Assembly: GCF_000003605.2 (NCBI RefSeq) | Contig: NW_003124905.1 | Coordinates: 173,838-219,968 of the forward strand | DNA from: Saccoglossus kowalevskii | Lineage: Eukaryota > Hemichordata > Enteropneusta > Harrimaniidae | Length of the DNA stretch: 46,131 nucleotides | Direction: 5' to 3' | Shown here: in pieces, positions 1-46,131 of the stretch | How positions within the stretch are numbered: position 1 is the stretch's first letter | How the letters are laid out: every line of letters starts with the position of its first letter | Translations under genes and position numbers: made by a program | Notes under the pieces: generated by a model | Database searches by the model: none | The model's input: the letters and a program-made list of their open reading frames with translations, nothing else | Told to the model about the DNA's origin: nothing

Positions 1-1092
1 AAAGAAGGCATCCAGTTCTGTTGCCCAATGACCACTACATATCGTATTTGATAATCCAGCATGTACATGAGCAAGGGCATTATGGGGTAGCAACAACTGC
101 TGCCAAAGTGAGGAGTGAATATTGGGTTGTAGGTGTGACAAGATTGGCAAAGACTATCAAATACAGATGCGTGACTTGCAGAATCCTCAAGCGCGAGACT
201 GAAACTCAGTTCAAGGCTAATCTCCCAGTTGAAAGAATGGCTCCATTTACGCCACCTTTCTATTTCACTGCATCTGATTACTTCGGCCCATATATTGTTA
301 AAATTGGAAGAAACAAAACGACAAAACACTGTGGCGTCATCTTTACTTGTATGAACACCAGAGCAGTTGACTGCTCTACAATGGAATTTTTACAAGTTCT
401 ACGAAGGTTCTTTGCTATTAGAGGAAGGCCCAAGTCTATTCAGATTGACAACGGTACTCAGTTTGTAGGAGCCGAAAGACAACTTCGAGAGATGGTGAAA
501 AGGTGGAGTGAAACAAAAATTCTGTGCAGAGCAACAGGTGACATGTAGGTTCACCACACCACTAGCTCCTCATCAGAATGGATGTGCTGAAGCTCTGGTT
601 AAAAGTTGCAAAGTGGCCCTGAGGAAAGCTTGGTGAGCAAAGACTCACTCCGTTTGAGTTGCACACCTGCCTTCAAGAAGTTGCTAACTTAGTAAATGAG
701 CGACCAATCGGAAGAGTACCAAATGATTCTGATGATGGCAACTATCTCTGTCCAAATGATGTTTTGTTTGGAAGGGCTTCTAGCAGAGTGCCACAAGGTC
801 CATTTCGTGAGACAAAAATCCAAGATAGAGACATCAATTTGTTCAATACATAGTTAATGCGTTTTGGAAATGCTGGATGAGAGATGTGTTTCCTTTGTTG
901 GTTCCTCGACAGAAGTGGAATGTAGACAAAAGCAATGTGCAAGTGAATGATATTGTTGTAGTAGCTGATCCATATGCAGTACTTGGAAAATGGAATCTCG
1001 GAAGAATTACAGAAATTATTTCTGGAAAAGATGGACGGGTGCGAAATGTTACAGTAAAAACTGTGACATGTGAATTGAGTCAAAACAAATGA
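1..1092 (+). pseudogene. BEL/Pao-like retrotransposon pol remnant (integrase and C-terminal domain)
   Basis: This is the 3' part of a retrotransposon pol gene; its 5' part lies outside the window. From 21 the frame reads an integrase zinc-binding region (HVHEQGHYG followed by CVTC), then an integrase core with the first catalytic Asp in TASDYFGP and the second in QIDNGTQF. The third catalytic residue, Glu, lies in the next frame near 575-600 (HQNGCAEAL). Fragments at 659-853 and 877-1092 continue in shifted frames. The last one resembles the C-terminal domain that follows BEL/Pao integrase (KWNVDK, then GRITEI and DGRVRNV). The SDYFGP/IFTC.NTRAVD pattern is typical of BEL/Pao rather than Ty3. 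Several frameshifts and in-frame stops (about 540, 645 and 853) make it inactive. Family assignment is from remembered motifs, not a search. Confidence 0.88.
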
Positions 1093-6923: not shown

Positions 6924-9085
6924 TCAGTCATGTCGTATGTCAACATATCGTACATAGCCACTAGCTTCCGTAGATCCGAGACTTGCTGTTATTCCGGTCA
7001 TGAAATATGGGGTTGGAGAAACTGATTTCGAGAGATCAGTCCATTTGAAAGTTATGTGCGTTAACTCGCGTTCTATGACAACACTCCCACCATCTATTGC
7101 AACTCCATAATCGTTGTAAATTTCATAATCTACCATTAACGGAGGAGAGAAAGAAGGGTCGACTCTCTCCATTTTAAACTCGTAACAGTCATCTGTCAGT
7201 CGACGGTACGTTACTGTTACATCGCCTGTGTGTGATCAGAAAAAAACACAATCAATAAATAATGTGTGGGGCTGGTGAAATACTATGCGTGTATGATAGA
7301 AATGTTGAAAGGCAAAACTGATATTAACATTTGAAGACGTCAGCAGCAAATAACGCTTTTGTAGATACTCAAATAAAAAAATATACGTTTTCTATCAAAG
7401 AATTATTATTAAATTTGCCTGAACGATTGTCACATATACCGTGTGATCGTATTGTGCAACAATTTTACAAACAATATGCATACATAATTACTATTATACT
7501 CTTTTATGGATGCCGCCTTGGAACAAAAAACAAACAAGTAAACAAAGTGTGATGATTAGTTAATACAGTTATAAACAGTCATGAATATATTGATTTGCAG
7601 AATAACCCCCAGGTATCCAATAGTAGAAATACTAAGTCATTCCCCTGCATTGGACAAACTAGTGGCCACTTCCTGAATACGGAATGACAATTATTAATAA
7701 AATCAATGTGTAATCGTAATTGAACACTACTTGTTTACTATTGGTGGACATATATTACAGCAAGCACATAGCAATTCAAAATCCGCAAATCTAAAGTGCA
7801 GTGATGAGTTGTAATATTATTTATTTTGGAACAGGTGTTCCAACATTCTCGGACATTTCCATTTCATCATGGGTAGATTAAAAGAATCAGCAAATTCTCA
7901 ATTTTATACAAATCTATTAACACACAAAAGTAGTATTTTGCTATAAATCGGAATTTATTTAATATTTCTTAACTTAAGTAGTATTTTGTAATCAAATCGC
8001 ATGCTCGACAATATGTCCAACATCAACTATTACTGTTTTCATAACAATGTTGTGTCGGTCCTAAAAAGCACGCACATTGGAACCGTACAACGTCGCTGTG
8101 AAATTAGGTCGTTAAAACGATCTGCTTTTTAAAATATCCTGCTTTTAAACTCTTGCAGTGGTGGTTTCATTGTAAACAGAGTGTTTCGCATACATTTGTT
8201 TCAACCTGTAAACAACAGTTGAAAAAATACCACTAACTCGGAACCATCAAATCTATGCCCACTACACAGTCAGCTGGTGCACGAGTGATACAATAAAAGC
8301 GACATTTACTAGATTGGGGCCACCATTTTGAATACGCCATGAAACTAAATAAACAAGTTGCGAAACGCGTTGTGCCGGCCACGAAGTACGCACACTAGAA
8401 CCGCGCTGTTTCGTTGTGAAAATAGGTCTATAAAACGATCTGCTTTTTAAAATATCCTGCTTTTAAACTTCTGCAGTTGTAGTTTCATTGTAAACAGAGT
8501 GCTTCGCATACATTTGTTTCAACCTTGAAACAACAGTTGAAAACTTACCACTAACATGGAATCATCAAATAGAATCGTCAACATGAACATATTTTTAAAT
8601 AGTGCGCAACCACCATATACATTATAGGTACGAAATCCCATATTCAAATTAGTAATAAATAAGATACGTATAATATTTAATAATTTATTATTATCAATAT
8701 TATCAAATAACAGCGAAAAATTATATATTATATTTGTTCGTAAATTCAGTACTGTCGTGTTGGATAATGTTAAGGCAGTGTTCGTTACATGAAAATGTAT
8801 TTCACATTTACGGCACGAAAATTAACATAAACCCTCGGCCACGTATTAGTTGATAGAACTTTAAAGGGCGGCAGTCGTCCTGCCGCGTCCTGTTCAATAT
8901 GGGACTCATAGCGACGTATACGACGCGTGTAAAATACATTGTTTATTTACATGAAATTCCAACACGAGCTGCGCGACGACTACCGCGCTTTAACAGAAAT
9001 GATCATACAGTTATTTACGTACCTCCAATTCCATGCACAGTGGGATTATTAGAGAGACACACATGGTGAGTAGAATATTCCACAT
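6924..9085 (-). CDS. Gene A: small secreted protein with unassigned domain, spliced
   Basis: Coding exons on the minus strand are 9085-9023, 7516-7492 and 7225-6924. Spliced, they give 129 aa. The first starts MWNILLTMCVSLIIPLC, a hydrophobic signal peptide, and ends at donor GTACGT. The second is a 25-nt microexon (AASIKEYN plus one base) with acceptor TTCCAAG after a long pyrimidine tract and donor GTAATT. The third opens at acceptor ACACAG, completes a split codon (AGC, Ser30), and encodes about 99 residues ending YVRYVDIRHD and TGA. Phases fit exactly: 0, then 1. The domain contains RVDPSFSPPLMVDYEIYN and AIDGGSVVIE, both identical in gene B. There is one mature Cys (Cys43). There is no membrane segment after the signal peptide, so secretion is inferred. 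I recognise no family; the pattern suggests a small beta-rich domain. The 11-kb-distant paralogue supports every boundary. Confidence 0.82.
7492..7516 (-). other. 25-nt microexon of gene A
   Basis: It encodes AASIKEYN plus the first base of codon 30. The acceptor (minus strand) follows a long T-rich tract ending TTGTTCCAAG, and the donor is GTAATTAT. The equivalent exon of gene B has the same length, the same phase and similar sequence (AKPIEDYN). An ATG-to-stop ORF scan cannot detect an exon this short. Confidence 0.78.
7669..8252 (+). repeat. Intronic repeat element in gene A intron 2
   Basis: It runs from CTTCCTGAATACGGAATG to CCATCAAAT and matches the reverse complement of 19558-20108, which lies in intron 2 of gene B. 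Shared blocks include GCATACATTTGTTTCA near 8190 and AATTCAAAATCCGCAAAT near 7775. There is no coding potential. The ends are not clearly inverted repeats, so the class is unknown. Confidence 0.7.
8050..8570 (+). repeat. Partial tandem duplication, period about 320 bp
   Basis: Segment 8050-8252 is repeated at 8371-8570. Both contain ACGATCTGCTTTTTAAAATA and end near ATCAAAT. The intervening 8253-8370 includes the segment shared with 4431-4545. The second copy lies outside the region matched in gene B, so it arose after the A/B split or was lost from B. Confidence 0.75.
8861..8993. mobile_element. 133-bp MITE with terminal inverted repeats, in gene A intron 2
   Basis: The left end TTAAAGGGCGGCAGTCGTC (8861-8879) and right end GACGACTACCGCGCTTTAA (8975-8993) are inverted repeats with two mismatches. 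The interior is richer in CpG than its surroundings. Gene B lacks it at the aligned position (about 20320-20330, reading ATAACTTATAATAGAAATG), so it is an insertion in A or a loss from B. A related element with similar ends is at 29116-29281. It is too short to encode a transposase, so it would be moved by a DNA transposase supplied elsewhere. Confidence 0.75.
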
Positions 9086-9250
9086 GATAATTCTGCAAAA
9101 TAGAGAACAAAACACAATGAGTTGACGTTAACCACCGCTATTCATAACAGTACTGCTACGCGTGTTCTACGTTATATCTCAAGTCAACACTTTATTTAAC
9201 ATTTCATGCAAACATAATGATGATACTGTTCCGATAACGACTGAACTTAC

Positions 9251-9330
9251 ACGGAAAAGGGTGTAAACGTTCGCTAGTTGTTGAGTCTTGAGAGCCGAGC
9301 GAGCAAGGTAAAACGGTTCAAACTTGACGA
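9251..9330 (-). other. 5'UTR exon of gene A (3' boundary defined)
   Basis: On the minus strand the donor GTAAGTTCAG begins at 9250, and the exon upstream of it is conserved with gene B (CTCAAGACTC, then AGC and GTGTA). The short intron 9250-9093 ends in TTCTCTATTTTGCAG. The exon is non-coding: in gene B the equivalent acceptor is followed by an in-frame TGA before the ATG. The transcription start is not known and 9330 is only a guess. Confidence 0.6.
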
Positions 9331-9410
9331 TAGTAATCCTTAATGTTTTTAGTACAGATTTACATATGTTACAATTTTAGTGCCTCCTACTGGTGGGGAA
9401 ACACGTCAGC
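9251..9410 (-). promoter_or_regulatory. Likely promoter and upstream region of gene A
   Basis: Similarity to gene B continues upstream of the first donor to about 9410 (gene B about 20725). It includes TTCAAACTTGACGATA and TACAATTTTAGTGC, then stops abruptly. A conserved upstream block of this size is where a core promoter would be expected. No TATA box could be assigned with confidence. Confidence 0.4.
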
Positions 9411-10134
9411 TTCCTGTCACACCTTATTTTCACGCCCAATTTAATTAGCTAATATTTTACAGATTAAGAGAATTACTTTTATTGTTTGGATGATTACATA
9501 TTCCACAATCACATATGTGTACCCAACGCGTCATCGCTGTGAACCGCGGGAGTTGGAAGCCACAAAGCCGCCATTGGTAGAAACTTTCTTACCCGGGCGT
9601 TCAAGAAGAAAAATATCAATTTCTGCCTGAAATGACTAATAAATTAGTGCTAGACGGTATTGCAGGAGGCGCCAAGCATCTAGAGCGGCTGCAAATAACC
9701 ATATTGAACAGCGGGGTTGAACAGTTAAAGTACACTCGAAGGTGAACTTTTTACCGCCTTCCATGAGAATCGTCGCCCAGCCATCATATTACCGCTACAA
9801 AAGCACCGGACCAGCGTTTTGGAGAAATTATGACAAATATATCACTGAAACTGTGGCTCATCGCTGACCAACGTAGCTGATTTGTTGGAGGTTTGTATAA
9901 AATCACAATAACGACAACCATGTGTTGCCATGTAGTTTTAATCCAACAATAACAGTAACAATCGAATAGTGTGAGTTATTAATATCGAATCATATGATTT
10001 CCCCCTGTGTTACATTAGATGAGTTTAGCGTGAATGTGAATTTATAACGTTGCGTCGTGAATTGTATTACAATTTAGTTGTTTGGCTATTTCTGAATTCC
10101 CTGCGCCGTTATAATTGGAGTATTTAGTATACTT
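9411..10134. other. Intergenic stretch upstream of gene A
   Basis: No supported gene. It contains a YY1-like core (GCCGCCATTGG, about 9569-9579) and a GC-richer patch at 9520-9800. The 5' end of the following LTR may extend back into 10000-10134, but the 3' LTR copy is truncated there and cannot define it. Confidence 0.35.
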
Positions 10135-10771
10135 AGTATAATATTCAGTATTTTGCTTGTGTACAATTTTACATAAATGCTATTGGATATTTCCTTGTAC
10201 TAGTATATTCCATGTACCCTTGGTCAATTTGACTGTTGCTATAGAGACGATAGAGTTAAATAACTGAGACATAATATCTGCATAGTAATTATTATTGCAT
10301 CGTGTGATTTACTATGTGCTCATTGATGGCAGTGTTAAATAACGAATATATACGTCCTGACTTGTGGTCAATGTATTTGATGTTTCCGTGCATGTTATAT
10401 CTATATTTTTATACATCTGTCACCGTAACGCCATAAGTTACAGCGTGCCGTAATTTTGCGGTATTTTACGGGGTATTTTCATCATACCATATAAAGAAAT
10501 GCGAATTCCTAATATGGAAGTACGCGCGTATGCGTCCTCTACCAGGGTTTGACCGGACTCCACAGAAAGAAGTTCGCTGATTCTGTTCCGAATATTTTGG
10601 ATTTCGGCATTTCTATGATGTATTCTTTGAAGGCAAACAAATATAATAATAATAAGAAAGTACTGCGCGTCAGGCAATACTCCCGCTCTACTGTCTTCGT
10701 GCATACTTTGAGGTATCCTAGTCATAACCTCATATAATTATTGTCATTAGGATTACAGCGCCCTCTATAGT
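10135..10771 (+). mobile_element. 5' LTR of decayed Ty3/gypsy-like element (with insertion)
   Basis: It is a direct repeat of about 15637-16078. Shared blocks include CAATTTTACAT, ATTCCATGTACCC, ACTGTTGCTATAGA, ATTATTGCATCGTGT and the end ATTACAGCGCCCTCTA. Similarity is interrupted here by about 340 bp (10396-10735) absent from the 3' copy. It flanks gag- and pol-like remnants, which supports the LTR reading. Exact TG/CA ends and a primer-binding site were not identified. Confidence 0.65.
10396..10735. mobile_element. Insertion of about 340 bp inside the 5' LTR
   Basis: It is absent from the 3' LTR at the aligned point (between GCATGTT and TATTATCATTAG). Its left end carries the 44-nt motif also found at 3354-3397. 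A 95-codon minus-strand frame (10725-10438) and a plus-strand frame overlap inside it, but neither resembles a protein I know. It may be a SINE or other non-autonomous element. Target-site duplications were not clear. Confidence 0.5.
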
Positions 10772-13264
10772 CAAACGTGACATGGCTTCGTTACAGATGC
10801 ATAAGATTCATTACATGGGAGTGCTAAAACGATGACCAATTTGATGACTGGTTCAGAGTAGTGGAGAATGCCATAGACTTACTATACAAAGATAGGGGAC
10901 AGGGTGAGAAGGAGTCTGTTGCACAGTATGCAGTCACATTTGAAATGGACTTAGATGTTATCTATAAACAGGGTAGTATCGATAGAGATAAAGTCTACCC
11001 TTTGCTGAGTACTTTCTGGAAGGGATTGGAGTCTGGAAACGTTCATCCTGCTATTCGACCTTGTATCATTTAAATGATGAGTTAATGATGATGAGTTAGT
11101 CATTGTTGCTCATGCCGCAGACGAGGAACTTCGAGAGAGAAAGTGCCAGCGACATTCCTCGAACCAAGCCACATTGGGAACCACATCACAATAGTCAGAC
11201 GATGTTGAAGAGTGCTCCAAAGTGGTCAAGGCTGAACCAACAAAAGAGACGTTGCAGATTGCACATGCTCTCAAAATGCAGAATGACACAACGTTTGCTA
11301 CGCTGCTGACCCGGTTGGAACCCCTGGAAGCACGGGCACCCCTTACACAACAACACAACTGCCAGCTATCTTTCCCAATGATATAGGTACATCCATACTT
11401 GTCATGCCCCCTACAGTGCCGAAAGTATATAGACTGCAGAGAGGATGTTACGATTGTGGTGACACAACGCATTTTTTCAGAGACTTCCAAGAAGAACAAA
11501 ATCATATCTTTAAATGCCACAAATGACGTATGAATGACCATTATTCAAGGGGGTGCCTAAACTGAACAAGATGCCTCAATCTTACAGCACCATACCGAAT
11601 CTCAGAGCCACACAGCCAATGGCTAAGCCAACTCGAATGCTTTGTGTGGTGTCCGACCTGAACGTAATCCTGTCGGATCGCAAAGTAAGAGGATGTCTCA
11701 TCACGTATATGGATAAAACCCTTGCCAATTCAATACATGCCCATAGCCACTACCAGACAACTACAAATGAGAATACTGTGAGGACCGGTAGGGAAGGCGC
11801 TTGAAGAAGCATATCAGTAGATGGACACGAATCATAGTGCCTGATAGACACAGGCTCCAAAATCACCAAAAGCACTAAATGGTTCTATGACCAGAACTTC
11901 TCAAACATACTGTTGGAGACAGTTAGATGATGATCCGGTAGTACAGGGAGTCGGCGATGAACCTGTTCCACCCAGAACAGTTTATGTTCTGCAACAGAAA
12001 CTTGATGTACATGCGATTGTCATCCTGAACATTGAGTATACTGTACGTGTCTGTTACATTGGGCATCAATGTGCTGAAACCACATTTACTCGCAGTTGAA
12101 TCCCATCAAAATGATTGGTTCCAGGTGACAGTTTGTAGGTCCCAGCAGACATATTCTACTTGATTTCTGAATTTGGTATAGGACTGACGCACTAAACGCA
12201 GATGCTGAAGCTCTGAGTCACTGGCTGGGAAAAGGCTACACAACCACAAACAAACGATTCCACAGTAGATGAACTGGATAACACTAGATGTACGTGATAC
12301 AGAAGTTGTAACAGCAGTCTTACATAGTCGACTTTGCCCGATGGAACTGGAGTCATTCACCAGATTTATGCTCAAACAGTGGCTGTTGTACTCCCGGAGA
12401 GCAACACAGCATTACCCAACATGAACTGTAGGAAATGGAAACAGTTGCAGCAAGCCGATACGACAATTGGAGTTATCTACCAATATGTGCTAAGTGAAAT
12501 TCCACAAGATCAATACCACTGCACAAAGCAGAGAAGTATCAGCTGCATGCTATAGAAGAAATATTAGAGGAAATACCATTTTCGTAACAGTGGTTGACTC
12601 AAACGGTAGGACTATCTACCAGTTATATCTAACGCCAGAATACAATGGAGTGGCTATGGAAGCATTCCACGAGGAAGTTAGCCACCTTTGACAGGAAATA
12701 TTTCTGGAATTAGGGAGATGACGGTTCTCCTGGCCCGGGGTGACACGCGATGTGATAAGACATGTCTGCTAATGTGACAGATGCACATGGCGCAAAATCA
12801 CAGTCGAAAAAAGAGAAATCACGCCCATGATGTTACCACCATGTCGCTTCTTGAACTACTTTGTAACGATTTCCTGACGCTAGAAAGACATCTATGATAT
12901 AGCCGACAATTTTGACAGACAAATGGGAGCACCATGGGGTCCATCACTGTTTATGTCATAAAAACCTGAGGATGGAGGCAAAAAGCGCACCATACACAGA
13001 AACTTGTTAATGCCAGTAATGCTTTGCCACGAAATACACAAGAAAGACCCAGGAGAGTGCCTAGGGACCACCATAACCAATAACAATACAGAATGACTAC
13101 ACGCTTAACACAACATGCAAACCATTCCTCATCGAATTAAATCCCTGAGTCAGACATCATTTTTCTGTTAGAAGCAATCCTAGTACAACCAGCACATATA
13201 CTATGTTTCAATTGCAAGGAGAAATGCAAGTTGTGACATAACACAATACTGCACCTGATTTGAA
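10772..13264 (+). pseudogene. Ty3/gypsy-like gag-pol remnant, heavily deleted
   Basis: Order is gag, protease, RNase H tail, integrase ends. Gag: a frame from about 10828 (FDDWFRVVENA...ESVAQYAVTFEMDLD) runs to 11073. Two zinc-knuckle-like motifs follow at about 11444-11485 and 11514-11555. The first lacks its last Cys (Phe codon) and the second has a TGA where a Cys is expected. Protease: LIDTGSKIT at about 11841-11867. Reverse transcriptase is missing. An RNase H end-like stretch (ALNADAEALSHW) is at about 12182-12220. The integrase zinc-binding region is at 12660-12795 (HEEVSH, RFSWPGVTRDVIRHVC, CDRC). A pol C-terminal-like KRTIHRNLLMPV at 12987-13022 means the integrase core is deleted. 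Many stops and frameshifts make it inactive. Confidence 0.75.
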
Positions 13265-15604
13265 GGATATGCCCAGGGCAAAGACAAAGACCCAGTGTTT
13301 TTAAAACATTGGAGACCACTAACTCTTTTGTGCTGTGATGTCCGTATCCTTGCAAAATGTCTTTCTCTTCGTGTGAAACATGTGATTTCAGATATAATTA
13401 ATGAAGACCAAACTGGGTTCATTCATGGTCGTTTTATTGCAGACAATATTCGAAGGTTGCTGGAAATTATTGATACATATGAAAAAAATGATGAACCGGG
13501 ACTGGTCTTTATAGCTGATTTTGAAAAAGCATTTGATAAGTTGAGAAGGGATTTAATTATAAAAAGTTTAGAATATTTTAATTTTGGTCAATCATTTGTA
13601 ACCTGGGTGAAACTCATGTACCGGGATATTAGTAGCCGTATAATCAATAATGGTAATATTTCAATGCAGTTTGGTATCTCCTGTGGTGTTAGACAGGGTT
13701 GCCCCATGTCACCTTACTTGTTTATCATTTGTGTTGAGCTTTTGGCCAATAGAGTGAGACGCTGTGACAAAATTAAAGGTTTATATACAGGTCCCTTAGA
13801 GAATAAGATCTCTCAATATGCGGATGACACGAATTCCCCGACGTATCCTTCCCGCGAATTACTTAACTCGTTGCTAAGTATTTTGTCTAATTTTGAAATT
13901 ATTTCTGGGTTGAATCCAAATTATGATAAATGCAATGTCTTGAGGGTTGGGTCTATAAAAAATACAAACTTTACTATTGAAACATCTCATCCTGTAACCT
14001 GGGCTGACGGTTCTGTTGATATGCTTGGAATACATCTTCCAGAATCCTGTTGATTATTCACAAATAACTACATTGAATTTTAATTATCGCATTGAAAAAG
14101 TGGGAAAGTTGTTGCAGCCATGGAAGGGCATGGGTCTGACGGTATATGGTAAAATAACGATTATAAAATCTTTGGCGATTTCGCAATTTACTTACTTGTT
14201 TATGTCTCTTCCCTCCCCGGACGCGGCTTTTTAAAAAAAATATGATAATATAGTTTTCCAGTTTTTATGGGGAGGTAAACGTAATTGGGTTAAAAAAGAC
14301 GATGTCTACAAACCAAATGATAAAGGTGGCCTCAACCTAACCAATTTAAGAGAATTCAATGCTGCATTAAAAGCAGCTTGGATGCCGAGACTTTATTGTA
14401 ATACAAAATCTTTCTGTAGTGTATATTACAAAGCTATACTAGGTCAGTTTGGTGGTATTTTACTCTTCGCAAATTTAGAAAAAAAAGACCATAGTACTCT
14501 CGACCCATTACCTTCCGCTTTTTTGAAAGAAATTATTTATCCATGGCTGCAATATAACTATACTCCAACTGATGAAATAGATAACATTTTGCATGAAATA
14601 ATTTGGAACAATTCCAATGTGCGCATCAACAGGAACCCTATTGTATGGAAACAATTTATAGATGCTGGTATTATCTTTATCAATGATTTATTTTGTGAGA
14701 CTTGTACATTTATGAAATATGATGAATTTATTGTAAAGTTTGGTAAGTTATGTACACATCACGAGTATAATCAGTTGGTATCAGCCATTCCATCTACTTG
14801 GAAAAAACAAAGCCGAATAATGAAAAGATTTGGGTATGTATGCCAAATATGCGCAAAAAAACATGGTTAGCAGGTGATAAAATTAACAGAGATATTTACA
14901 CGTATTTATTGAATTTGTATAGTTCAAATGAAATCTCTTTGCATATTAAACATAATTGGCATGACATTCTTGACTGCAGCATTCCGTGGAAAATAGTGTT
15001 TTTGCTTCCTTACAGGATAACAATGGATCCCAAATTAAGATATTTTCAATACAAGCTTATTATGAAATTTTTGCCATCAAATCGGCTTCTTCACTCATAG
15101 AATATGATTGATGATCCTGTATGTACGTTTTGTAAGGAAGTAATAGAGGACTATTTTCATCTCTTCTGGGATTGCGTTTTTATTTCAAAATTCTGGTCAT
15201 GCGCACTACAGAGGTATCGTACTATAACACGTTCCAACATATCATTAAATGCAATGAAATGTATTCTTGGTGATGTCGAAGACCATGCCAATATATTATT
15301 TAATGCATTTCTCCTGATGGGTCGATACTACATCTATCGTTGTAAAATATTGGGAAATAGTATCAACATGAATTGTTTTAAGCTTTATATTAAATCTGTG
15401 TATACTGTTGAAAATCAAAGTGCATGTATGAACGGAAAGCAATCTGAGCTTGCAGAGAAGTGGGGTGCGTTTGTACAATACTTTTAAATATAACAACTAC
15501 TAGTTGTGAACTCTTTCTTCCATTGCCTGTACATGGGTATACTTTTTTTCTGTACAATGTCGTGTATTTATGTGGTTATCCTCTAAGAAATAAAAAAAAA
15601 AAAA
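13265..15604 (+). mobile_element. 5'-truncated L1/Tx1-like LINE inserted in the LTR element
   Basis: Non-LTR retrotransposon ORF2 remnant. It opens within the reverse transcriptase (VFLKHWRPLTLL, DQTGFIHGRFIADNIR), lacks the endonuclease domain, and ends in an A-run at 15592-15604 overlapping AATAAA. Catalytic motifs are present: FIADFEKAFD (A), GVRQGCPMSPYLF (B) and YADDTN (C). A C-terminal CCHC-like motif is at about 15122-15175 (CTFC...HLFWDC). Frames: 13295-14053, then a shift to 14016-14870 with an in-frame stop at 14232-14234, then a shift back to 14798-15487 with a stop at 15098-15100. Truncation at the 5' end and a 3' A-tail are the usual result of target-primed reverse transcription. 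Its identity is more intact than the host LTR element's, consistent with later insertion. Confidence 0.9.
13295..15487 (+). pseudogene. LINE ORF2 reverse transcriptase, C-terminal part, broken
   Basis: This is the coding part of the LINE above. Palm-domain motifs A to C fall in the first 760 bp without interruption. Downstream 'thumb' and connection sequence (for example LWGGKRNWVKKDD near 14264-14302 and GGLNLTNLREFNA near 14323-14362) continues across one in-frame stop. The final 127-codon frame holds the Cys-rich C-terminal motif. Two frameshifts and two in-frame stops mean no functional enzyme is made from this copy. Confidence 0.88.
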
Positions 15605-15636
15605 TTATCCTTTCAGTGAGATATTTTACACCGACT

Positions 15637-16078
15637 TATTAAGTATTTTGCTTTTATACAATTTTACATGAATATAATTGTTCTGTGTTTTCATGTGGTA
15701 GATCATTTAGTCAGTGTCAACAACAAAATAATTTAGGTGAAGTCAGTTTTATAAAGTTTCCACGTTATTACGCATTGATAGTAACAGAAGTAGTCCTGAA
15801 CTATTTCATTCCATGTACCCACTTATTCAAACATTGTTCAATGGATGCATTATCTTGTTCAATGTAACTGTTGCTATAGAAACGGAGTTAAATATTTGAG
15901 ACATATAAGCTGCTATCAGGAATTATTGCATCGTGTAATTTGCTATGTGCTCATCACTGACATTGTTAGATAACAAATAAACAACGCGTCCTGGCTTCTG
16001 TGGACTCTTGGCCAGTGTGTTAGGTGTGTCTGTGCATGTTTTATAGTTATTATCATTAGAATTACAGCGCCCTCTATG
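15637..16078 (+). mobile_element. 3' LTR of the Ty3/gypsy-like element (5' part lost)
   Basis: Direct-repeat partner of 10135-10771, ending in the same ATTACAGCGCCCTCTA. It starts about 33 bp after the LINE A-tail, so the LINE insertion or a later deletion removed the region between pol and the LTR. It carries about 140 bp near 15690-15820 not seen in the 5' copy. Confidence 0.6.
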
Positions 16079-16754
16079 TTCGCATCTGTTCTCAAGTCCA
16101 GAGCAACAGGATCATACCGAACAACCTCCAATAGCGCTTGCAGGCACCAGGCCGGCAAGAGGAAAGGAATAAAGAGAGAGGAAGAATGCCTTACTTGCTT
16201 ACCTTACCCACCTCGTTGCCACGCCCCGTGATAGCTCAGCGTTCTACAATGAACACAAGTTTCCAATTTTATCGTATAGGGTTGAGTTAGCAGCTGGTCT
16301 TTGTGATTAACAGCGTTCTGCACAACAAAGACGGCGGCACGAGATTCTGCATGGGGCGACATCTATTGCAAACGAAACTCTCCACGATCTCTATGTCTAA
16401 GTCGATGTTTACCAAGTTTGTCAAAATCGAGTTTGACGCCTGACTAGTCTTCTCGTTACAAGGCAGGATATTGCGTATGTTCATACACCATGTAAACCAT
16501 CGATCGTTTAATAGAAAAAGATTCAAAATAAAAGCAGAAAAGACATTGACAGCCCAAGCCCGGATTCGTATTACATAACTTTGTTTGGATTTCGCGGTCA
16601 CCCCTATATTTATTTTTTAAGAATTTTTCACCGGAATCGCAACAGACTGCAAGCAAGTCTAACCAGGGTTCTTCTCGCATAGAAGACGAGTGCACTGACT
16701 AACAATAACGAATATTAATAGGACAAAAGTAATTCCGAATATTAGCAGTGTCAT
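16079..16754. other. Intergenic stretch with a repeat related to 21090-21500
   Basis: No gene is supported. Segments near 16243-16360 and 16495-16575 match 21099-21215 and about 21225-21490 in the same orientation (CTACAATGAACACA[A/C]GTTT, then TTTATCGTATA, later CGGATTCGTATT). A 30-nt purine-only run lies near 16157-16187. Confidence 0.45.
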
Positions 16755-17745
16755 CTATTCCACTCCGATCGTTGCCCTTAAATTCTGTATATAATATTAT
16801 CAAGCTCCAGTTAGTAACATTGATTAACTATTGTTTCAAGCAATGCGATATTTGATTCAGAAATATGGGATGTAAGATATTATTGTTGTTATAAACTTAA
16901 GGGCAAGTAATGTGAAAACAAAAATAAGACCACACACCATTAACACGAATTGAGAACTGCATTTCGCCTGTTAAATTCTGCAATATTTCTATGATTTTAT
17001 TTGGTAACTAATATCTTGTCTCTGGGGGGGGGGCTGTGTCGTTATGCATTACAGAATGATCTGGTCCTGTAAATGCATAAACTTGAGTTTAATCAGTTAT
17101 CCCGCACAGAAACAAATGGAGATCGCTGCAAATACCAATGCAGTACACGAATGCCAACGCTGACTCTATCAATTACACTTTCCACACGAGCCAAAACCTA
17201 GTAATAATAGCACCATACCTTCAGTTTTGTTTAGGATAACTTCCGGTTACCTTCTTTCCTCGGAAAATTAAAAAAAAATACATCATTCAGTTCAAGTTGT
17301 TACTCCCGATAGTATGATGAATGAGCATGCGCATGACACAAGTTAACAGTTACTTGAACTTGCAACATATAATAGTGATCGTCGTGGAAACCGTCGTTTA
17401 CGAAAGGTATCTCAAAATAGCAAAAAAGTAGCAAACTAATTAATTGTTCAATATTTGTCTTATATTGTATTTATTGTATTAAATACATATCTAAACAACA
17501 ATCAAGTGGTTATGTATTATTAGAGGCTTAAATGAGCTCGTTTAAGTTTGCCGCAAATTCGCACAGGTGCGTTGTAATCACCCCTCTCAGATATTGGAAT
17601 TCAACACCGAGGCTCCGCCAATAGAGATAAGACCTGTACATTTATCGCTACATGCACAGTATAACTTGCTGAGAAATGTGACGTGTGAGCCTTTTCCCAA
17701 TAATTGTGCTGCATACAGTCGATAATAGTGCATTTAGTTCAACTA
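16755..17745 (-). repeat. Inverted segmental duplication, minus-strand copy
   Basis: The reverse complement matches 22680-23810 on the plus strand over almost 1 kb with indels. Landmarks on the minus strand in order are TTATCGACTGTATGCA, CTGTGCGAATTTGCG, GAGATACCTTTCGTAAACGA, GGTATGGT, GTAATTGATAGAG, TTTACAGGACCAGA, and TTTTTGTTTTCACA followed by CAAATATCGCATTGCT. It lies about 95 bp beyond the stop codon of gene B. A run of 10 G (plus strand, 17025-17034) is a local expansion. Confidence 0.8.
16857..16967 (-). other. Possible C-terminal exon ending in a hydrophobic segment (minus copy)
   Basis: After an acceptor-like TTTAACAG, an open frame reads AKCSSQFVLMVCG then LIFVFTLLALKFITTIISYI and ends PYF plus TGA. 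The plus-strand relative (to 23713) ends in a similar hydrophobic stretch and the same TGA. The two indels between the copies are 18 and 12 nt, both multiples of three. A hydrophobic stretch reaching the very C-terminus would fit a tail anchor or GPI signal. However, similarity continues unchanged past the stop, so coding selection is not proven. Confidence 0.3.
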
Positions 17746-17838
17746 AGGTAAATATTACGTCATGAAGTGACAATCTGCGTCTTTCCCGTCATGTAATAAT
17801 TATTAATTGTTGATTCCCAGTCCGATGTGATGGTATTA
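17746..17838. other. Short downstream region of gene B
   Basis: Presumed start of the gene B 3'UTR on the minus strand. AATAAA in minus sense (TTTATT on plus) occurs only further on, near 17470, inside the inverted duplication. Confidence 0.3.
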
Positions 17839-20412
17839 TCAAGCATTGCTTATTTCGACGTATCGTACATAACCACTAGCTTCTTTTGGCCCAAGGCTTA
17901 CCGTTCTTCCGGTCATGAAAGTTGGATGCATTGACTCGAATGGAACATTCCATTTAAAAGCTATTTTCGAAAAAGCTGGTTCTATGACAACGCTACCACC
18001 ATCTATTGCAATGCCATCTTCGTTGTAAATTTCATAGTCGACCATTAACGGTGGAGAAAAAGAGGGATCGACTCTACTTAATACAAATTCATAGCAGATA
18101 ACTGTCAATTGGCGATACGTTACCGCTACATCACCTGCAAATTAGCAGAAACACAGTTTAACATTGGCTGTATATTGGTAAATGAAATGAAATTGAATTG
18201 AATTGAATAACATTGTTGACGCGAATATCTTTTTGATTTGCAAAAACGTTGTGTTATATGTAGTGTATGGATGAATTGTGCGAAAAACATACACACAATA
18301 CGTATAAATACTTACAATTGTAATCTTCTATGGGTTTCGCCTATAGTCAGAAATATTAAAAGAACAGTATAATAATGACATACAAGTTTTACACAGTCTC
18401 AAAAAATATACTAGTTTTTTTTTTTTTTATAAAATTTTCGGTTTCGATCAAATATGTAATGTGTCTATTTGAGAGGCTTAACTGAATGTCGAACATATTT
18501 CTTGGAAATCGTTGTATTAACCAGTTTAGTTGATTTGGATTTATCGTGTTTGAAAAAAAGTTATTGACATGTGAAATAATATTAATTATATACATAGACT
18601 TAATTTTTTCTGTCTATTTGATTATTTTGCGTAAAATCCACAATCTTCAAATTGTATTATTATGGATCACTATAATTACTGCACATAAGAATAACATGCC
18701 ATATACTAAGCGTGGTGTAGTAAGATAACGCCCTCTTTGAGCAAAGTAAAAATGCATGAAGGTCTCCTTGGATCACACAAACGATATTTTAGTTAATGAA
18801 TATGTCACTGCCGTCAAAAGCCTACTGGTTATCATGCAATCAAATAATCAATATTATCAGTAAAGCAAATCAATATCTTTATATGCTACGTTATATTTGT
18901 TCTATATTAACCCTTTACTGAAATATGATGTGCCTGCATGGAACCATGGTTTATCAATTTAGAGCAAGTTCAAGAACATTCGTTGGGAATTATTTTACAT
19001 TCTAAGCAAACGACATCAAGAGATGTTTTAGCTTTACAATACAATATCGCTTGAATTTTTCAAGTCATTTTAAGCATTGGTTATCTAGTAGTAATATTTA
19101 CGAAACAGCTTTGTGTCTACAAAAGTGTGATTTAAATAAATTATTTTACCTACTTTGATGTTTACTTTGATTGGGGATTCTATAGTAATTATTATTGTTT
19201 GACATTTAACGATCGTGACCATTTTTATTTAGCGAAATCTGCATTTTTACATGTACTCCGTTCTCGAATGTGACTGTCGATGCTAGTGGCAATATGGTCA
19301 ATCATTCCTATTTTGTGTTTTAAATAGACCATGATATCCCTGACCTTTGGTGACATGGACTGAACAATGGAATATTGTCACTGTATTTACAATACGAAAA
19401 CGCTAATTTCACAAATATTTCTATGCTGGTTCCTACTGCTAAATCTATGCCTATTTGTTAATTAAAATGTTAGGTTTTCTCGTGAATGAATATTATATGC
19501 TAAATCCAGAAAGATGCCTTATACGTTTTCGAATTCGTTGAAGCCAAATAGGTTTATATTTGATGATTAATGTTACTGGTATTTTGTTCAACTGATGAAA
19601 TAAATGTATGCGAAGCGTTCTGTTCACAATGAAACGAACAAAAGGTCGTATTAACGACGTCATTTCACAGCGACACTGAGTGGTTCCATTATGCGTACTT
19701 CAGGACCGGCACAACGTTTTAATAAATAATAATAGTTGATGTGGGATATGCTGTCGAGCATGCGATTTGATTTGCTTATTTATAATTACAAAATAAAACT
19801 TAGGTTATGGAATATTAAATAGACTCATATTTATAGCAAAATGCTACTTTCGTATGTTAATATATTCGCATAAAATTGAGAATCTGCTCATTCCTTTAAT
19901 ATACAACTGAAATGGAATCGTCCGTGAATGTTGCAACACCCGTTCCAAAGTAAACAATATTAATACCCATCAACTGCCATAGATTTACGGATTTTGAATT
20001 GCTATGTGTTTGCTTTAATATATGTCCTCCCAAGGTAAACACATGTAGTGTTCCATTAACATTACACATTGATTTTATTAATAATCATTATTCTGTATTC
20101 AAGAAGAATCAATTATTAGGAATAAGATAATCAGTATAATATTCAATTATTTATTAATATTATCAAATGATAGCGAAAAATGATATATTATAGTCATTCA
20201 TAAATTCAGTACGGTAGTGTTGGATAATTTTAAGATCGTGTTCGTTACATAAAATGTATGTCACATTTACGGCTGACAATCAAGATAAACCCTCGACCAC
20301 ATGTTAGGTAATATAACTTATAATAGAAATGATCGTAATGTTATTTACGTACCTCTGATTCCATACACAGTGGAATTAGAGAGACACACATGGTGAGCAG
20401 AATATTCCACAT
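17839..20412 (-). CDS. Gene B: small secreted protein, tandem paralogue of gene A
   Basis: Coding exons on the minus strand are 20412-20353, 18340-18316 and 18134-17839, spliced to 126 aa. Exon one encodes signal peptide MWNILLTMCVSLIPLCMESE and ends at donor GTACGT. The microexon (AKPIEDYN plus one base) lies between CTGACTATAG and GTAAGTAT, both good splice sites. The last exon follows TTTGCAG and completes a split codon TGT (Cys29). It encodes DVAVTYRQL...CYEF...RVDPSFSPPLMVDYEIYN and ends YVRYVEISNA then TGA. Compared with gene A there is one codon fewer in the signal peptide and two fewer near residue 100. Two mature cysteines (29 and 42) could pair, while A has only one. The start codon is supported by an in-frame TGA just upstream within the same exon. 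The function is unknown to me. Confidence 0.84.
18316..18340 (-). other. 25-nt microexon of gene B
   Basis: It is flanked on the minus strand by acceptor CTGACTATAG and a strong donor GTAAGTAT. Length and phase (in 0, out 1) equal those of the gene A microexon at 7492-7516. It encodes AKPIEDYN and the first base of Cys29. Confidence 0.82.
18341..19557. other. Distal part of gene B intron 2
   Basis: No gene is seen. It includes a 15-nt poly-T run near 18415-18429 and other AT-rich unique sequence. Gene A has only about 150 bp at the equivalent place, so the intron lengths have diverged by about 1 kb here. Confidence 0.45.
19558..20108 (-). repeat. Intronic repeat element in gene B intron 2 (opposite orientation)
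   Basis: It is the reverse-complement match of 7669-8252. It abuts the conserved intron segment (from about 20110) that is in the same orientation in both genes. The element is therefore flipped relative to its host intron between the two paralogues. Confidence 0.7.
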
Positions 20413-20561
20413 GATAATTCAGATCTGCAAAGTAGAGAACAAAACACAATGAATTGACGTTAATCACCAATTTTCATAACAGTACTGCTGTGCAAGTTCA
20501 AATCAATATTCTATTTGACATTTTATGCAAACATAATGGTGTTACCAACGACTAAACTTAC

Positions 20562-20640
20562 ACGGCAAAAAAGTGTACACGCTCGCTAGCTGTCGAGTCT
20601 TGAGAGACGAATGGGTAATGTGAAAAGGTTCAAACTTGAC
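20562..20640 (-). other. 5'UTR exon of gene B (3' boundary defined)
   Basis: On the minus strand the donor GTAAGTTTAG begins at 20561 and the 137-nt intron ends TCTCTACTTTGCAG at 20425. The exon sequence CTCAAGACTCGACAGCTAGC resembles that of gene A. The start site is not defined; 20640 is an estimate. The coding exon begins ATCTGAATTATCATG, so the upstream exon is untranslated. Confidence 0.6.
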
Positions 20641-20725
20641 GATAATAATGATTAATATTTTTTAGTAAAGACAGATTTACATATATTACAATTTTAGTGC
20701 TTCCTGGTGACGTAAACACTTCAGC

Positions 20726-22679
20726 TTCCAAACAAAAGAATCTATACACATAGTGATATACGCGTATGTTCAATCAATCATAATTAAGTTATATATAAAT
20801 ATAATTTATTATACACTATTATTATTTTATATGTTAAATTGAATTTTTTGAATGAACAAAAATGGTTTCAAAGTCAGTCTACGCCGATCTCATTTTTATG
20901 CATTATTTATTATTTTATTTCTTTTAACGAGGCTCTTTATTTGCATACATACATATTCTCGGTGACGTAGACAGAGGTATTTGCTGGTCAGTGGGCATTG
21001 CCGATATCACGTGTATATATGACACAATTCTTATTCAATTTTCTCGTCTTTGACTAAATTGAACCTCATTTACTTATTCGTCGAAGAAGAGTGGACTACA
21101 ATGAACACACGTTTTCAAATTTATCGTATATGGTATATGTCTTCGTGACCAACGGCGTACTGTACAATCACTTGTACGGTGGTCGATGAAGTCGGTTCAA
21201 ATGCCGACATATATTACACTGAAGTATATAATCGATTCATCTAAAAAATTAAAATAAAGTCAAAAAATAACTTTAAAATTCTTAACTTTGAACTATGGCG
21301 ATCAATAACATGAATGAATCGATGTCATCTTGAAATGTGATAACGACGAGGACAAGTGCTGGAATGGCGGCGTTTGATTGGGTAACAAAAATATCTGAGA
21401 GCGAAAAATAAAAAAAGTCGATCGTCATAATTATGACATCACTTTAAAAATAGGTGGTGGCAACGCCAAACTCGGATTCGTATTCTCAAACTTATTTCGA
21501 AGATCAAATAAAAAGACCAGGAAGTGTGAAGTCGTCTTGCAACACCAATCACCAAACCATTCAGAAACTTTTAAACAGCGATATTACAAACAATTAGAAG
21601 AGTCTAAGTGCTGCGAAATTTCCTGTTTGTTCGACGCTTCAGTTTCGCCTTCATTAGCGAAATTATTGTTACCTTTTTCATTAACACGAACAACGCGATA
21701 TTTGTCTTCGTCAGGATAGCACAACAGTGAAACCATTTGAAATACTTCCCTTCAGAATTCCACTGCGGTAAACATAGGCTGGTCCGGAATCTGTGTATGA
21801 CGAGGAGGTCAATCCCAGCGTTTCATTGATTCTATGGCATTCGTCCACTGATTAACATATATCGTTGAATGACGCAGTATGTCGGTTTGGCGCGAGAATA
21901 TTGCTTCCTCTTTGCTTCCTCTAATATTCACATATTGTGACATTTGGTGGCGTACTTTCACTTCGGCGAAAGTTGGGAAGCCGAAAACAGTCGACTGTTT
22001 TGAGTTCAAAGAACTGTGGGATATTTACTTGAAAAACCTCCACAACTGATTAGGATATGTCGATTACCATGAACGGGTTTCTAAAGATCATTGATCGCCG
22101 GGAACGACCAAAAACAATTTACTGTGCTGCCGGGAGATGGTGGGAAGGGGAATTTGTTTCAGTTCGGTGGATTAATTAAATAATTATCTTTATTAATACT
22201 TCATCAGTTAGCAGCATGTCAGTAACATTCGAGGCACCAGATTGTGGAATTAAAACAGCTGTATATATTGTTATATGGTTTTACTGACTTATAAGTACAA
22301 ATGGGAATCAGGACAAGTGGCGAGGTTATTCGTTGCCTAATGTAATTGGCGAATGGACGGGGTGGTTCGAATCACATCCAAACATTTACGCATGTGAGTT
22401 AAACCCACCTTCAAATGTTCAATTTGAAGCACTTGAAGCAAAATCACCAACGATGTTTCAACCCCCCCAAAAAACAGACAATATACGTTTCACAATATCC
22501 TTATATGAAAGACAAATTTGTGTTCATAAAACTAAACACTTTTCTACCAAACAGTTTTATTTTGTGTTTTCAGAAAACAAGCACATGCAATGTTTAAACG
22601 TAAGACACCCGATTATACATTTTCTATAAAGTGTTTACAGGGCAGTTTTGTATGCAGTCGACAGTGCACAACCATAATA
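20726..22679. other. Intergenic stretch, no convincing gene
   Basis: It contains 21090-21500, related to 16243-16640 in the same orientation. A 66-codon minus-strand frame at 22009-21809 (VFGFPTFAEVKVRHQMSQY...TNAIESMKRWD) has a protein-like composition, but no splice context or family was found. The plus-strand frame 22333-22629 contains a donor-like GTGAGT and no other support. Confidence 0.35.
21090..21500 (+). repeat. Direct repeat related to 16243-16640
   Basis: Shared blocks include ACTACAATGAACACA, TTTATCGTATA, GTGA[C/T]...AACG/CGT, and later CGGATTCGTATT, separated by indels. No coding potential is clear in either copy. It may be part of the same duplication history as gene B or an unrelated repeat family. 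Confidence 0.4.
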
Positions 22680-22705: not shown

Positions 22706-23810
22706 GCAACATATGCAACATATGCTCACACACGTCACCAATGTGTGCAGACATACTGTGCACATAGCGATACATTATTGATTTTAGTTATTTCAATCAT
22801 TAACAGCTTTATATAGTCATTTATATTGCACGTGTACTTACCGTGTACCGTCATACGTTCGGTTACGGATAAAATTCAGCATGCACGCTGTTGTTATCAC
22901 TGTCCAAGCTGGACAGGCGTTAATTAATATAGTCAGTCATACTCGTTTTCTTCATAGCTATTATTCGATTGGCAGAGCTTAAATGTTGAATGCCTGCTGT
23001 GCGAATTTGCGTATAATTTCAACGAACCACTCTAAGTATATAATAGTACATAAATATTTCACTATTATTGAGAAATTTCATGAATAAAATACAATATGAA
23101 AACAAATACAGAACAATAATTTAAGTTGTTGATTTGTTTATGAGATACCTTTCTTGGACGACGGTGTTCACGATGAAGACTATTTAATGTTGCATGTTCA
23201 AGTAACTTGTAACTTGGGTCGTTACGCACGTTCATGCAACGATTTCATTTTACTATCGGAAGCGTATGGACATGTGACGTGTTCGTTGAAGAAGCAACAA
23301 CGACCTGAAGTGAATGCCCTTTAGATTTTCTAAGGAAAGACGGGAACCGGACGTTATCCTAAATAAACTTTAAGTTACGATGGTATTGCTACTCCCTTAC
23401 CAAACGAGTGAAAACTGTAATTGATAGAGCCAACGTCGGCAGCTGTGTACTGCCTTGCATTCGCAGAGGCCCCGATTTTTTGCATTATGTGCGGCGGGCT
23501 GGTACGATAAATGATGTAACTCAAATTCATGTTTTTACAGGACCAGAGAATTGCATTCTTCATAAATTCCTTGCCTACATCCTTCGTAGACGTGACCTGA
23601 AATGCCAATACAAATATGGAACCGTTAGGCAGAACTGGTTACTGGTTTGTTGTCATATTTTCGTTTTCACATACTTTATAACAACAGTAGTATCTTACAT
23701 CACATATCTCTGATTCAAATATCGCATTGCTAGGAACAATAATTATAATTAATTGAACATTACTTAATGGATTTTGATATTATTATATTCTTCAGATTTA
23801 GGATAAAAAA
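22680..23810 (+). repeat. Inverted segmental duplication, plus-strand copy
   Basis: Matches the reverse complement of 16755-17745. It contains an open frame from about 23149 (IPFLDDGVHDEDYLMLHVQV... to TAG near 23321). The other copy reads IPFVNDGFHDDHYYMLQVQV in the same place, and both follow a pyrimidine-rich tract ending GAG. It also contains a conserved TTTACAG acceptor-like site at 23540. Whether this is gene or repeat is unresolved. Confidence 0.8.
23541..23713 (+). other. Possible C-terminal exon ending in a hydrophobic segment (plus copy)
   Basis: After TTTTTACAG an open frame (starting in phase 1) reads PENCILHKFLAYILRRRDLKC, continues to a hydrophobic stretch LLVCCHIFVFTYFITTVVSY, and ends with ITYL and TGA at 23711-23713. 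It is related to 16967-16857 on the minus strand. The same frame is open back to 23408, across the acceptor. I recognise no family. Equal similarity beyond the stop weakens the coding argument. Confidence 0.3.
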
Positions 23811-25082
23811 TACAAGTTTGTAAGAGCTAATGTTGGAAATTAATTTTGTCTTTTCAATATGAATTATTGTTGGTTTAGTGTTTTCGTCCCCTGTGCCAGA
23901 AGAGCTCTGGTAAGATAGCGGTTATTTTAAAAGTTTTAAAACACAGTCGAACAATTAGACGGATAGAAGGCGAATTAAATACAATGGATGTAGTGCATAC
24001 ATGCATAATTGTGGATTGGGCTACGATGGGATTGGAATAGAATAAATTTATTTCTAGTTTCTCTATTTTCCCAGGAGTTTGATCTGCTCGAGGAGACTGC
24101 ACCCGAGACAACAAGACCACATGAGAAGACGTTGGGTTCGTCAATTTATATCAACGAGGAAGGAGTTTAAAGATGCTATTGCTTGTTTTAGTTTATTACT
24201 TATCAGTTTGTTTCAAGTGACCATGTCTACAATTATCTGCAGCTGTTTCACGAAAGGTTTGAATTTCAGTAAATATACTTATTCAGCTACACATAAGTCG
24301 AGGATTTAATTTGCACTTCTACATGCTATTGTTATTCTTCTTCACAATAACTATATATGTATGTTATTTTTTTTAAACGTTCTACTTGAATTTTTGATTT
24401 GTTTATTGTACGTTATGACTAGTGTACAAAAGTGCAAATAGTTTGATCGCGAAACGCATCATTTGATGTATTTTGGTGCTTGTTTCAGTATCTTTACAAC
24501 ACGTAACTACAGCCACATCTTTGGTTAATATCTCATACGACACATATCCCGAGAAGTTTGTGTTCAAAATAGGGGTTTGACTAGCAGTACGCAAGCATGG
24601 AAGATTTTGATATAAAATACAAGCCCTCGACACTGAGATGGGGTGAAGTAATGGCGATGTCATGTGTGAATGAATCGATTCAGAATCAATTTAATATTCT
24701 TTGAATAAACGTAGTGTTAATTTTTCAATACAATATGCACATTTTCGGAACTATTACAGTTTATGATGATGATTTCAGATCCGTCACAAACCAAGTAACA
24801 CTGAACGTACACCAAAACTATATTAGAATTTAAATATGTGTAACAATGAACACTATCCCCGGTCTGCATCACGAGATCGACATGTGTGAACACATCTCAC
24901 CCAACATCACCTCATTTAAAAGATCCGTATTACTTTTTGATTAATAAGGCTTTGAAGAACAGAGGTTGTTTCCTAACAATGTTTCTATTGATTATTACTT
25001 GCAGGAGTTTCTATAACGCAACAATCTTAGAAACAGAATATTTTTCGGGAATATGTAAATATATTTTCATTGTGGGGTTTGC

Positions 25083-41788: not shown

Positions 41789-41871
41789 TTGGCACAGACG
41801 TTCGATTACAGTGAGCAGGGAGTTATACAGCGCGTTAACAGGGATTTATACGTCTTGGGAACGTCATTACA

Positions 41872-42646
41872 ATGGAATTTGTGGTATACCGTATGCTTTT
41901 GTTGGTGAGTGTTTTGTCACGATTTTTTATTATGTATCACGGTGCACAAAGCGGCGAAGTATTACTTGAAATACGAATCGGCGTTATGGTTACAGAGCCG
42001 GGTCATTTTCACGTTTCGGATGATTTGAACATCAATCTCATGTACCCGTACGTAAAACCTATGATTGCACCGGGTATTGATATTGCTGTAGAAAAAGTGC
42101 GAAATGATCGTAATTTACTGACGGGTGCCAATATATCCGTTGCCTACGTCGATTCCGAGTGTTCAAACCATGCCTCGATGATACGAGCTGTGGAACTCAT
42201 GGGAAATATTAAGGGTCTCGGTGTGGAGGCATTCTTTGGACCCGCTTGTGAATACGCCGCTGCTCCTGTTGCAAGATTCGCCTCACATTGGCAAATCCCC
42301 GTATTAACAACGGGAGCGAAAGCCCAGACATTCGGACACAAGACAGAAGAGGAATACGAAATGATCACGAGGGCTCACCCTCCTCACATAAAAATGGCGG
42401 AGGCGTTTGTGGAGGTGTTACAATATTTTAATTGGAAGCGAATAGCAGTACTACACCAAGACGATGGTACCCGTCCTTTCCGGGATTGTTGGTTTTTTAA
42501 CGCCGCGCTCCTTGCAGCCATGACAGCCGCTGGAATCGAGTACCCAGACGAAAAACGTTACGAGACGTTCAGTGAATATTCCCCCAGAGAAACGGACCAT
42601 GATTACTCTGAGCTTCTGAAGACGATGGTTATACCGCAGGCTAGAA
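41872..42646 (+). CDS. Natriuretic-peptide-receptor-like protein, first coding exon (partial gene)
   Basis: The exon encodes 258 codons plus one base and ends at donor GTAAGTCC (42647), phase 1. The start MEFVVYRMLLLVSVLSRFFI gives a signal peptide cleaved around residue 27. Residues about 34-258 resemble the N-terminal half of the ANF-receptor ligand-binding fold (periplasmic-binding type I). Evidence is MIAPGIDIAVEKVR, FFGPACEYAAAPVARF, WQIPVLTTGA and NWKRIAVLHQDDGTRPFRDC. Cys97 and Cys126 have a spacing like the first conserved disulfide of natriuretic peptide receptors, and Cys206 matches the third cysteine. Such receptors bind peptide ligands outside the cell. Some carry an intracellular guanylate cyclase and others (clearance type) have only a short tail. 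The missing 3' exons decide which this is. No second exon is certain in the window. Confidence 0.9.
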
Positions 42647-45757: not shown

Positions 45758-46131
45758 CAAATCTTATAATCGATAAAACATAACACAAGTACACATTAAA
45801 TTATTAATATTAATTCAATTATTTCATTTTAAATATTTATTTTTTTATTTTAAGGAATTATACGAACTTAATCAATTTAAATTCGTGGATGCTTCACACA
45901 AGAGTCAAAATGAGTAGCGTGCTTAAACAGATATGAGTGTTCCACCCACTGCTCGAATGCTTTGTAATATAACAAATCTTATAATCGATAAAACATAACA
46001 CAAGTACACATTAAATTATTAATATTAATTCAATTATTTCATTTTAAATATTTATTTTTTTATTTTAAGGAATTATACGAACTTAATCAATTTAAATTCG
46101 TATGCTTCACACAAGAGTCAAAATGAGTAGC
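45758..46131. repeat. Two nearly identical direct repeat units at the window edge
   Basis: Units 45758-45918 and 45973-46131 are identical except for a 2-nt deletion (TTCGTGGATGC versus TTCGTATGC). The period is 215 nt. A 54-nt segment separates the units, and the second one reaches the last base of the window, so more copies may follow. The units are very AT-rich and non-coding. This could be a young minisatellite or satellite, or an assembly artefact. Confidence 0.85.

Follow-up and report, generated by a model that had tools for sequence, protein, structure and literature searches.

The window, a stretch of 46,131 nucleotides of Saccoglossus kowalevskii DNA with 36% GC, contains two related genes on the minus strand, A and B (Table 1), for which three-exon models were obtained by mechanical testing of exon combinations. 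Each model consists of a signal-peptide exon, a 25-nt microexon (phase 0 to 1) and a domain exon, and predicts a protein of 129 (A) or 126 (B) amino acids. These lengths, exact only with the microexon included, and the minus-strand positions of both domain exons reproduce the preliminary description of this locus, the splice models being made from sequence. A tblastn search of the window with the A protein found the B domain exon at 65% identity (E = 5.6e-39), and 89 of 126 aligned residues are identical between the two proteins. The blocks RVDPSFSPPLMVDYEIYN and AIDGGSVVIE, which had been reported as unchanged between the genes, are indeed identical in A and B.

Table 1. Features of genes A and B (positions in the window) and domain exons of the related copies on contig C1340
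Feature	Position	Strand	Remarks
Gene A, coding exons	9085-9023, 7516-7492, 7225-6924	(-)	three-exon model
Gene A, promoter region and putative non-coding 5' exon	9251..9414	(-)	ends at GTAAGT donor
Gene A, signal-peptide exon and short 5' UTR	9023..9092	(-)	ATG at 9085; MWNILLTMCVSLIIPLCMELE; acceptor ttttgcag and donor GTACGT, both kept in B
Gene A, change-over interval in intron 1	7586..8648	(-)	bounded by the end of the direct A-B match (8648) and the start of the A-C match (7586); largely repeats
Gene A, 25-nt microexon	7492..7516	(-)	AASIKEYN + 1 nt; phase 0 to 1; B, C and four relatives have homologous exons
Gene A, domain exon including stop codon	6924..7225	(-)	96% identity to C, 75% to B
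Gene B, coding exons	20412-20353, 18340-18316, 18134-17839	(-)	three-exon model
Gene B, promoter region and putative non-coding 5' exon	20562..20729	(-)	sequence conservation with A
Gene B, signal-peptide exon	20353..20424	(-)	ATG at 20412; MWNILLTMCVSLIPLCMESE; three-exon model, conserved splice sites
Gene B, 25-nt microexon	18316..18340	(-)	AKPIEDYN + 1 nt; Cys codon completed by next exon
Gene B, domain exon including stop codon	17839..18134	(-)	model; structure predicted from translation
D4 domain exon	C1340:143017-143319	(-)	
D0 domain exon	C1340:156518-156802	(-)	
D2 domain exon	C1340:171797-172093	(+)	
D1 domain exon	C1340:190560-190862	(-)	
D3 domain exon	C1340:196463-196756	(-)	

Between exon 1 and exon 3, an open segment of the form AG-25nt-GT occurs twice in A and once in B; in the pair that the two genes share, 18 of the 25 bases agree. 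Both genes also have GTACGT as their first donor. Models lacking the microexon, which are open only with other donors (GTAAAT 4 nt downstream in A and B, and a weaker one in B), were rejected; such forms could arise by alternative splicing, against which stands the retention of the microexon across the family. A GTAAGT donor after 9251 in A and after 20562 in B and the acceptor before the ATG are both conserved, which suggests a further non-coding 5' exon in each gene, and the regions concerned (9251-9414 and 20562-20729) are 82% identical (133 of 162 aligned positions). The putative signal peptides were recognised from the sequence as hydrophobic stretches. A and B are predicted to be secreted, and their mature chains are acidic, with about 105 residues and a pI of 4.6-4.7 if the cleavage site is guessed correctly. 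The introns of the two genes had been described as diverged, which is true of intron 2 (55% identity, 99/180) but not of the 5'-UTR intron (117/137 aligned positions identical, 85%) or of a block in intron 1 (173/205, 84%), which are still close, although divergence is understated in these alignments because they take in only the stretches that can still be aligned.

The domain of B (translation of 17842-18132) was modelled with a pLDDT of 86.5 (two of five models above 80) and has seven strands in the model, at residues 2-10, 13-20, 29-36, 42-50, 56-62, 72-79 and 86-93; the model of the A domain was poor (pLDDT 58.9). The domain shared by A and B is thus predicted to be a seven-strand beta-sandwich of Ig/FN3-like type. 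The likeness to fibronectin type III and Ig-like folds lies in the model of the B domain, whereas sequence identity was only 3-15% in the structural alignments shown of this model with solved FN3/Ig-type domains, and A and B are without a Pfam match. HMM and structure searches matched no curated family: the full-length proteins gave no Pfam match at E <= 10, neither fn3 nor ig families appearing under that limit, although hits weaker than about 0.1 are mostly removed by the filters, and Foldseek gave none at E <= 0.001. The earlier statement that the domain could be placed in no known family therefore stands in so far as no Pfam model matches it, but the fold predicted for it is common. Matches to Pfam PapD_C (E 0.13), DUF6520 (0.18) and DUF7055 (0.062) were discarded as below cut-off, and two PDB sequence matches from a six-member profile (E 0.19 and 0.35) were taken as chance.

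The genome (572 Mb in 4830 contigs) was searched with four domain queries, B, E1, D0 and D2, which yielded 9 (one at E 3.49), 11, 12 and 5 matches, respectively. When merged, these form a family of at least eight stand-alone domain-exon copies (A, B and C on contig C1740, E1 on C2617, E2 and E3 on C1737, E4 and E5 on C56) and at least five distant copies on C1340, both counts being lower bounds; C2521 (E 0.24) and C56:117742-117798, a 19-residue piece beside E5, were left out. The larger cluster that had been suspected beyond the window thus exists, with gene C about 11 kb before the window start on the same contig and other members on the four further contigs. Among the relatives checked (C and E1-E5), the microexon is present in C, E1, E2, E3 and E4 (25 nt each) and was not found for E5, and a signal-like first exon was recovered in C, E1, E3 and E4 and not for E2 or E5; the full architecture of signal exon, 25-nt microexon and domain exon is found in A, B, C, E1, E3 and E4. 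Because three of the eight stand-alone copies (C, E4 and E5) have in-frame stops inside the domain, and E2 and E3 have altered, shorter tails, part of the stand-alone branch is, to judge from these reading frames, decaying. No relative was confirmed in the viral contigs, prokaryote genomes and phages searched. Four peptide strings were absent from a literature text search, although searches of this kind cannot prove a family unpublished.

Over 126 codons, dS between A and B is 0.775 and dN is 0.174, giving a dN/dS of 0.225 (bootstrap 2.5-97.5% interval 0.12-0.40), and none of 2000 bootstraps was at or above 1. By region, dN/dS is 0.066 in the core (columns 49-81), 0.72 in columns 80-100, and 1.26 in the microexon, the last value being from 8 codons only. 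These values fit the proposal of purifying selection on a core with variable edges, selection being strongest in the core and weak in columns 80-100. In comparisons of A, B and C with the E copies (15 pairs), dN/dS ranged from 0.28 to 0.50, and among the E copies (10 pairs) from 0.28 to 1.30, with the highest values involving the broken E5; the value for A and C (0.44) is derived from 10 changes in all.

Gene C (L014, C1740:154000-163500) lies on the opposite strand to A and B, and has a signal exon (MKLNLLTVCISLLHMGSVLQ) and a microexon (AASVEEYN); its domain exon carries an in-frame stop. Compared with B and with C, respectively, gene A is 83% and 60% identical in the upstream 330 nt, 92% and 57% in the coding part of exon 1, 65% and 51% in the first 60 nt of intron 1, 59% and 82% in the last 100 nt of intron 1, 72% and 92% in the microexon, 55% and 93% in intron 2, 75% and 96% in the domain exon, and 46% and 79% in 200 nt of 3' flank. 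Because identity to B is high in the 5' part and identity to C is high in the 3' part, gene A is, on these comparisons, a mosaic of a B-like 5' part (promoter and signal exon) and a C-like 3' part (microexon, domain exon and 3' flank), with the change-over in intron 1. Divergence between A and B at silent sites is unequal in the two parts, with 12 of 31 fourfold sites differing in exon 3 versus 20 of 137 positions in the 5'-UTR intron (of seven such comparisons, two were not significant), and this inequality is explained by gene C if the mosaic is read correctly from the alignments. Inversion or conversion between inverted copies is proposed since C is inverted relative to A, and would produce such a mosaic.

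The secreted proteins that contain VWD domains (PF00094) include those of the BMPER, mucin and vitellogenin kinds. All five domain exons on C1340 end with a phase-1 donor (gtaag or gtgag), and a comparison of open frames over a 70-kb stretch of this contig revealed a second conserved set beside four of them, downstream on the same strand, in which Pfam identified VWD in all three pieces tested out of eight (E 1.4e-11, 2.6e-06 and 2.6e-12). In these four copies, the first VWD exon has a phase-1 acceptor that matches the donor phase of the domain exon, across a gap of 380-970 nt; D0 is without a VWD exon of its own, the next VWD exons on its strand being those of D4. The domain and VWD exons of C1340 would form joint transcripts, presumably for larger extracellular proteins. 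A and B resemble VWD-domain proteins in that four of five C1340 paralogues of their domain lie directly upstream of VWD exons with matching phases, and differ from them in having no VWD domain within the gene: their domain exons end in a stop, and no VWD match above chance was obtained in the window. Rather than a new system on their own, as had been suggested, A and B are single-domain members of a larger family, and a domain without a Pfam model is added to those seen next to VWD domains.

No VWD match better than E 0.55 was obtained in the window; the other flanks read yielded nothing at E <= 0.1. Profiles of the VWD exons recover the C1340 exons at 181-183 bits, but their scores after A, B, C and E1 (3.45 kb in the case of E1) did not clearly exceed those for shuffled or reversed sequence. 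A stretch of 11 residues resembling VWD (21962-21994, E about 0.9) was taken as chance, and a VWD-like match of 20 residues with a stop, located 0.65 kb after E1 on the same strand (E 0.01 and 0.04), was not counted as a relic; it scores -0.2 bits versus -0.3 and -1.5 for the best shuffles (two profiles). On C1340 itself, a piece of the second half of VWD with no domain exon nearby (183237-183542, plus strand; L048) has probably decayed.

The ends of the domain exons were aligned by eye, the C1340 copies ending in ATGGGTGAG (D2), ATAGGTGAG (D4) and ATGGGTAAG (D0, D1 and D3), and the stand-alone copies in ATGGGTGAC (E1), ATGACTGAC (A) and ATGCTTGAT (B), with E2-E5 and C left out. The TGA stop of A, B and E1 falls at the donor position of the C1340 copies, one base off the D2 reading frame, so that an indel is needed besides loss of the donor. 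We read this coincidence as donor loss plus a one-base shift, with chance as a possibility; if this reading is right, a trace of the old donor may persist at the stop. Such a loss predicts relics of VWD exons downstream only if it was recent. In a phylogenetic tree (unrooted, drawn with a midpoint, D0 forming a long branch), the stand-alone copies (seven rows, E5 left out) are split from the C1340 copies with support of 99/98. In this unrooted tree of copies from one genome, descent is not polarised, and linkage to VWD could be the younger condition; we infer the direction of descent to be from VWD-linked to stand-alone. The opposite course, in which the stand-alone genes are ancestral small secreted proteins whose domain became attached to VWD exons on C1340 at a later time, seems unlikely. 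In its favour, each branch of the unrooted tree is a single group, the C1340 exons are phase 1-1, a shufflable form, and the profile search found no VWD relic after A, B, C or E1; against it, the stops of A, B and E1 at the C1340 donor position are easier to obtain by donor loss.

Three other explanations were weighed. That the two genes are leftovers of a decaying family, duplicates that have been silenced and now lack a function, is improbable. At a dS of about 0.8 and a dN/dS of 0.225, both still have uninterrupted reading frames, splice sites and signal peptides; in favour of this reading, in-frame stops occur in three of the eight stand-alone copies, and C, the near twin of A, is broken. 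Signal exons that are almost identical beside a 3' part that has diverged, together with the relaxed columns 80-100 (dN/dS 0.72) and the microexon (1.26 over 8 codons), might indicate diversifying effectors of an immune, venom or pheromone-like nature, in which a common 5' module is combined with swapped mature modules. This is considered quite unlikely, as selection over the whole domain is purifying and no known effector family was matched by A or B in Pfam or PDB sequences. The mosaic of gene A could be an assembly error that joined two haplotypes or copies, and the change-over does fall in the repeat-rich intron 1; however, the open frame of A is complete and the exons from both sides splice in phase, which makes such an error very improbable.

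The best explanation overall, which we hold to be probable, is that A and B descend from VWD-type extracellular proteins and became soluble through loss of a splice donor. They would be functional genes for small acidic secreted proteins with one Ig/FN3-like domain each. When the donor after the domain exon was lost, translation would have run on to a stop located there and so released a soluble product with a single domain. Copies in the stand-alone branch would then have multiplied, some of them decaying, and would have traded their 5' parts (promoter and signal exon), gene A being one hybrid. This anatomical and evolutionary account of A and B is held with good confidence. The soluble products may bind the partner, ligand or polymer of their VWD-linked relatives, by way of two variable regions, the N-terminal tail and the segment that follows the conserved core, and so act as free binding modules or competitors. 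The only direct support for a binding role is paralogy to the VWD-linked copies, and soluble binding modules that share targets with these relatives are put at somewhat less than an even chance. Tentative, and on balance doubtful, is the broader suggestion that the domain defines an extracellular family not yet described, whose VWD-type proteins yield free single-domain products by one donor loss, after which these products swap promoter-plus-signal modules between inverted or tandem copies, giving binding domains new expression control. If true, this would provide a readable case of a soluble secreted protein born from a larger extracellular one, with gene A as an example of copies exchanging their promoter and signal exon.

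The micro-exon genes of schistosomes carry many microexons with lengths divisible by 3, whereas A and B have a single one of 25 nt, which is not divisible by 3. A Schistosoma japonicum family (PMC3434034) shares a signal sequence and core promoter, and repeats are proposed as agents of recombination. A promoter and signal module is common to A and B too, and the difference from that family is that the mature domain of A and B is under purifying selection and their relatives are linked to VWD exons.

Several repeats and unrelated features were noted. Intron 1 of both genes contains a repeat of about 450 nt (7669-8123 and 19643-20106, in opposite orientation, 79% identity), and intron 1 of A also has a tandem duplicate (8049-8252 and 8369-8570) and, outside the A-B matches, a 130-nt element (8864-8993) with 90% identity to L014:721-850, about 1.6 kb upstream of the first coding exon of C. 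An old inverted repeat of about 910 nt (16658-17566 and 22997-23915) has 65% identity, and two copies of about 160 nt at the window end (45758-45918 and 45973-46131) have 98.8%. Between A and B, at 13259-15487 on the plus strand, lies a LINE-kind reverse transcriptase in several frames (13259-14053; RVT_1, E 1.6e-30), with a zf-RVT-like piece below cut-off, and a retroelement integrase piece (3-548, plus strand; Integrase_H2C2, E 9.9e-08) runs off the window start. No tRNA and no Rfam match at gathering score were found in the window, whose natriuretic-peptide-receptor-like exon and LINE-kind reverse transcriptase are in keeping with animal DNA. On the mitochondrial contig (C4830:13523-14863; L052), COX1 and ND1 are on opposite strands, TGA stands for Trp, AAA is found at presumably conserved Lys positions, and AGA occurs twice in ND1, once at a presumably conserved Ser position. 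As a lead only, this codon use would speak against the echinoderm/hemichordate, vertebrate and tunicate codes and would fit a lancelet. The first exon or exons of a natriuretic-peptide-receptor-like gene are located at 41839-42813 on the plus strand of the window (ANF_receptor, E 1.2e-28), with the clearance receptor as the best PDB match (E 4e-27).
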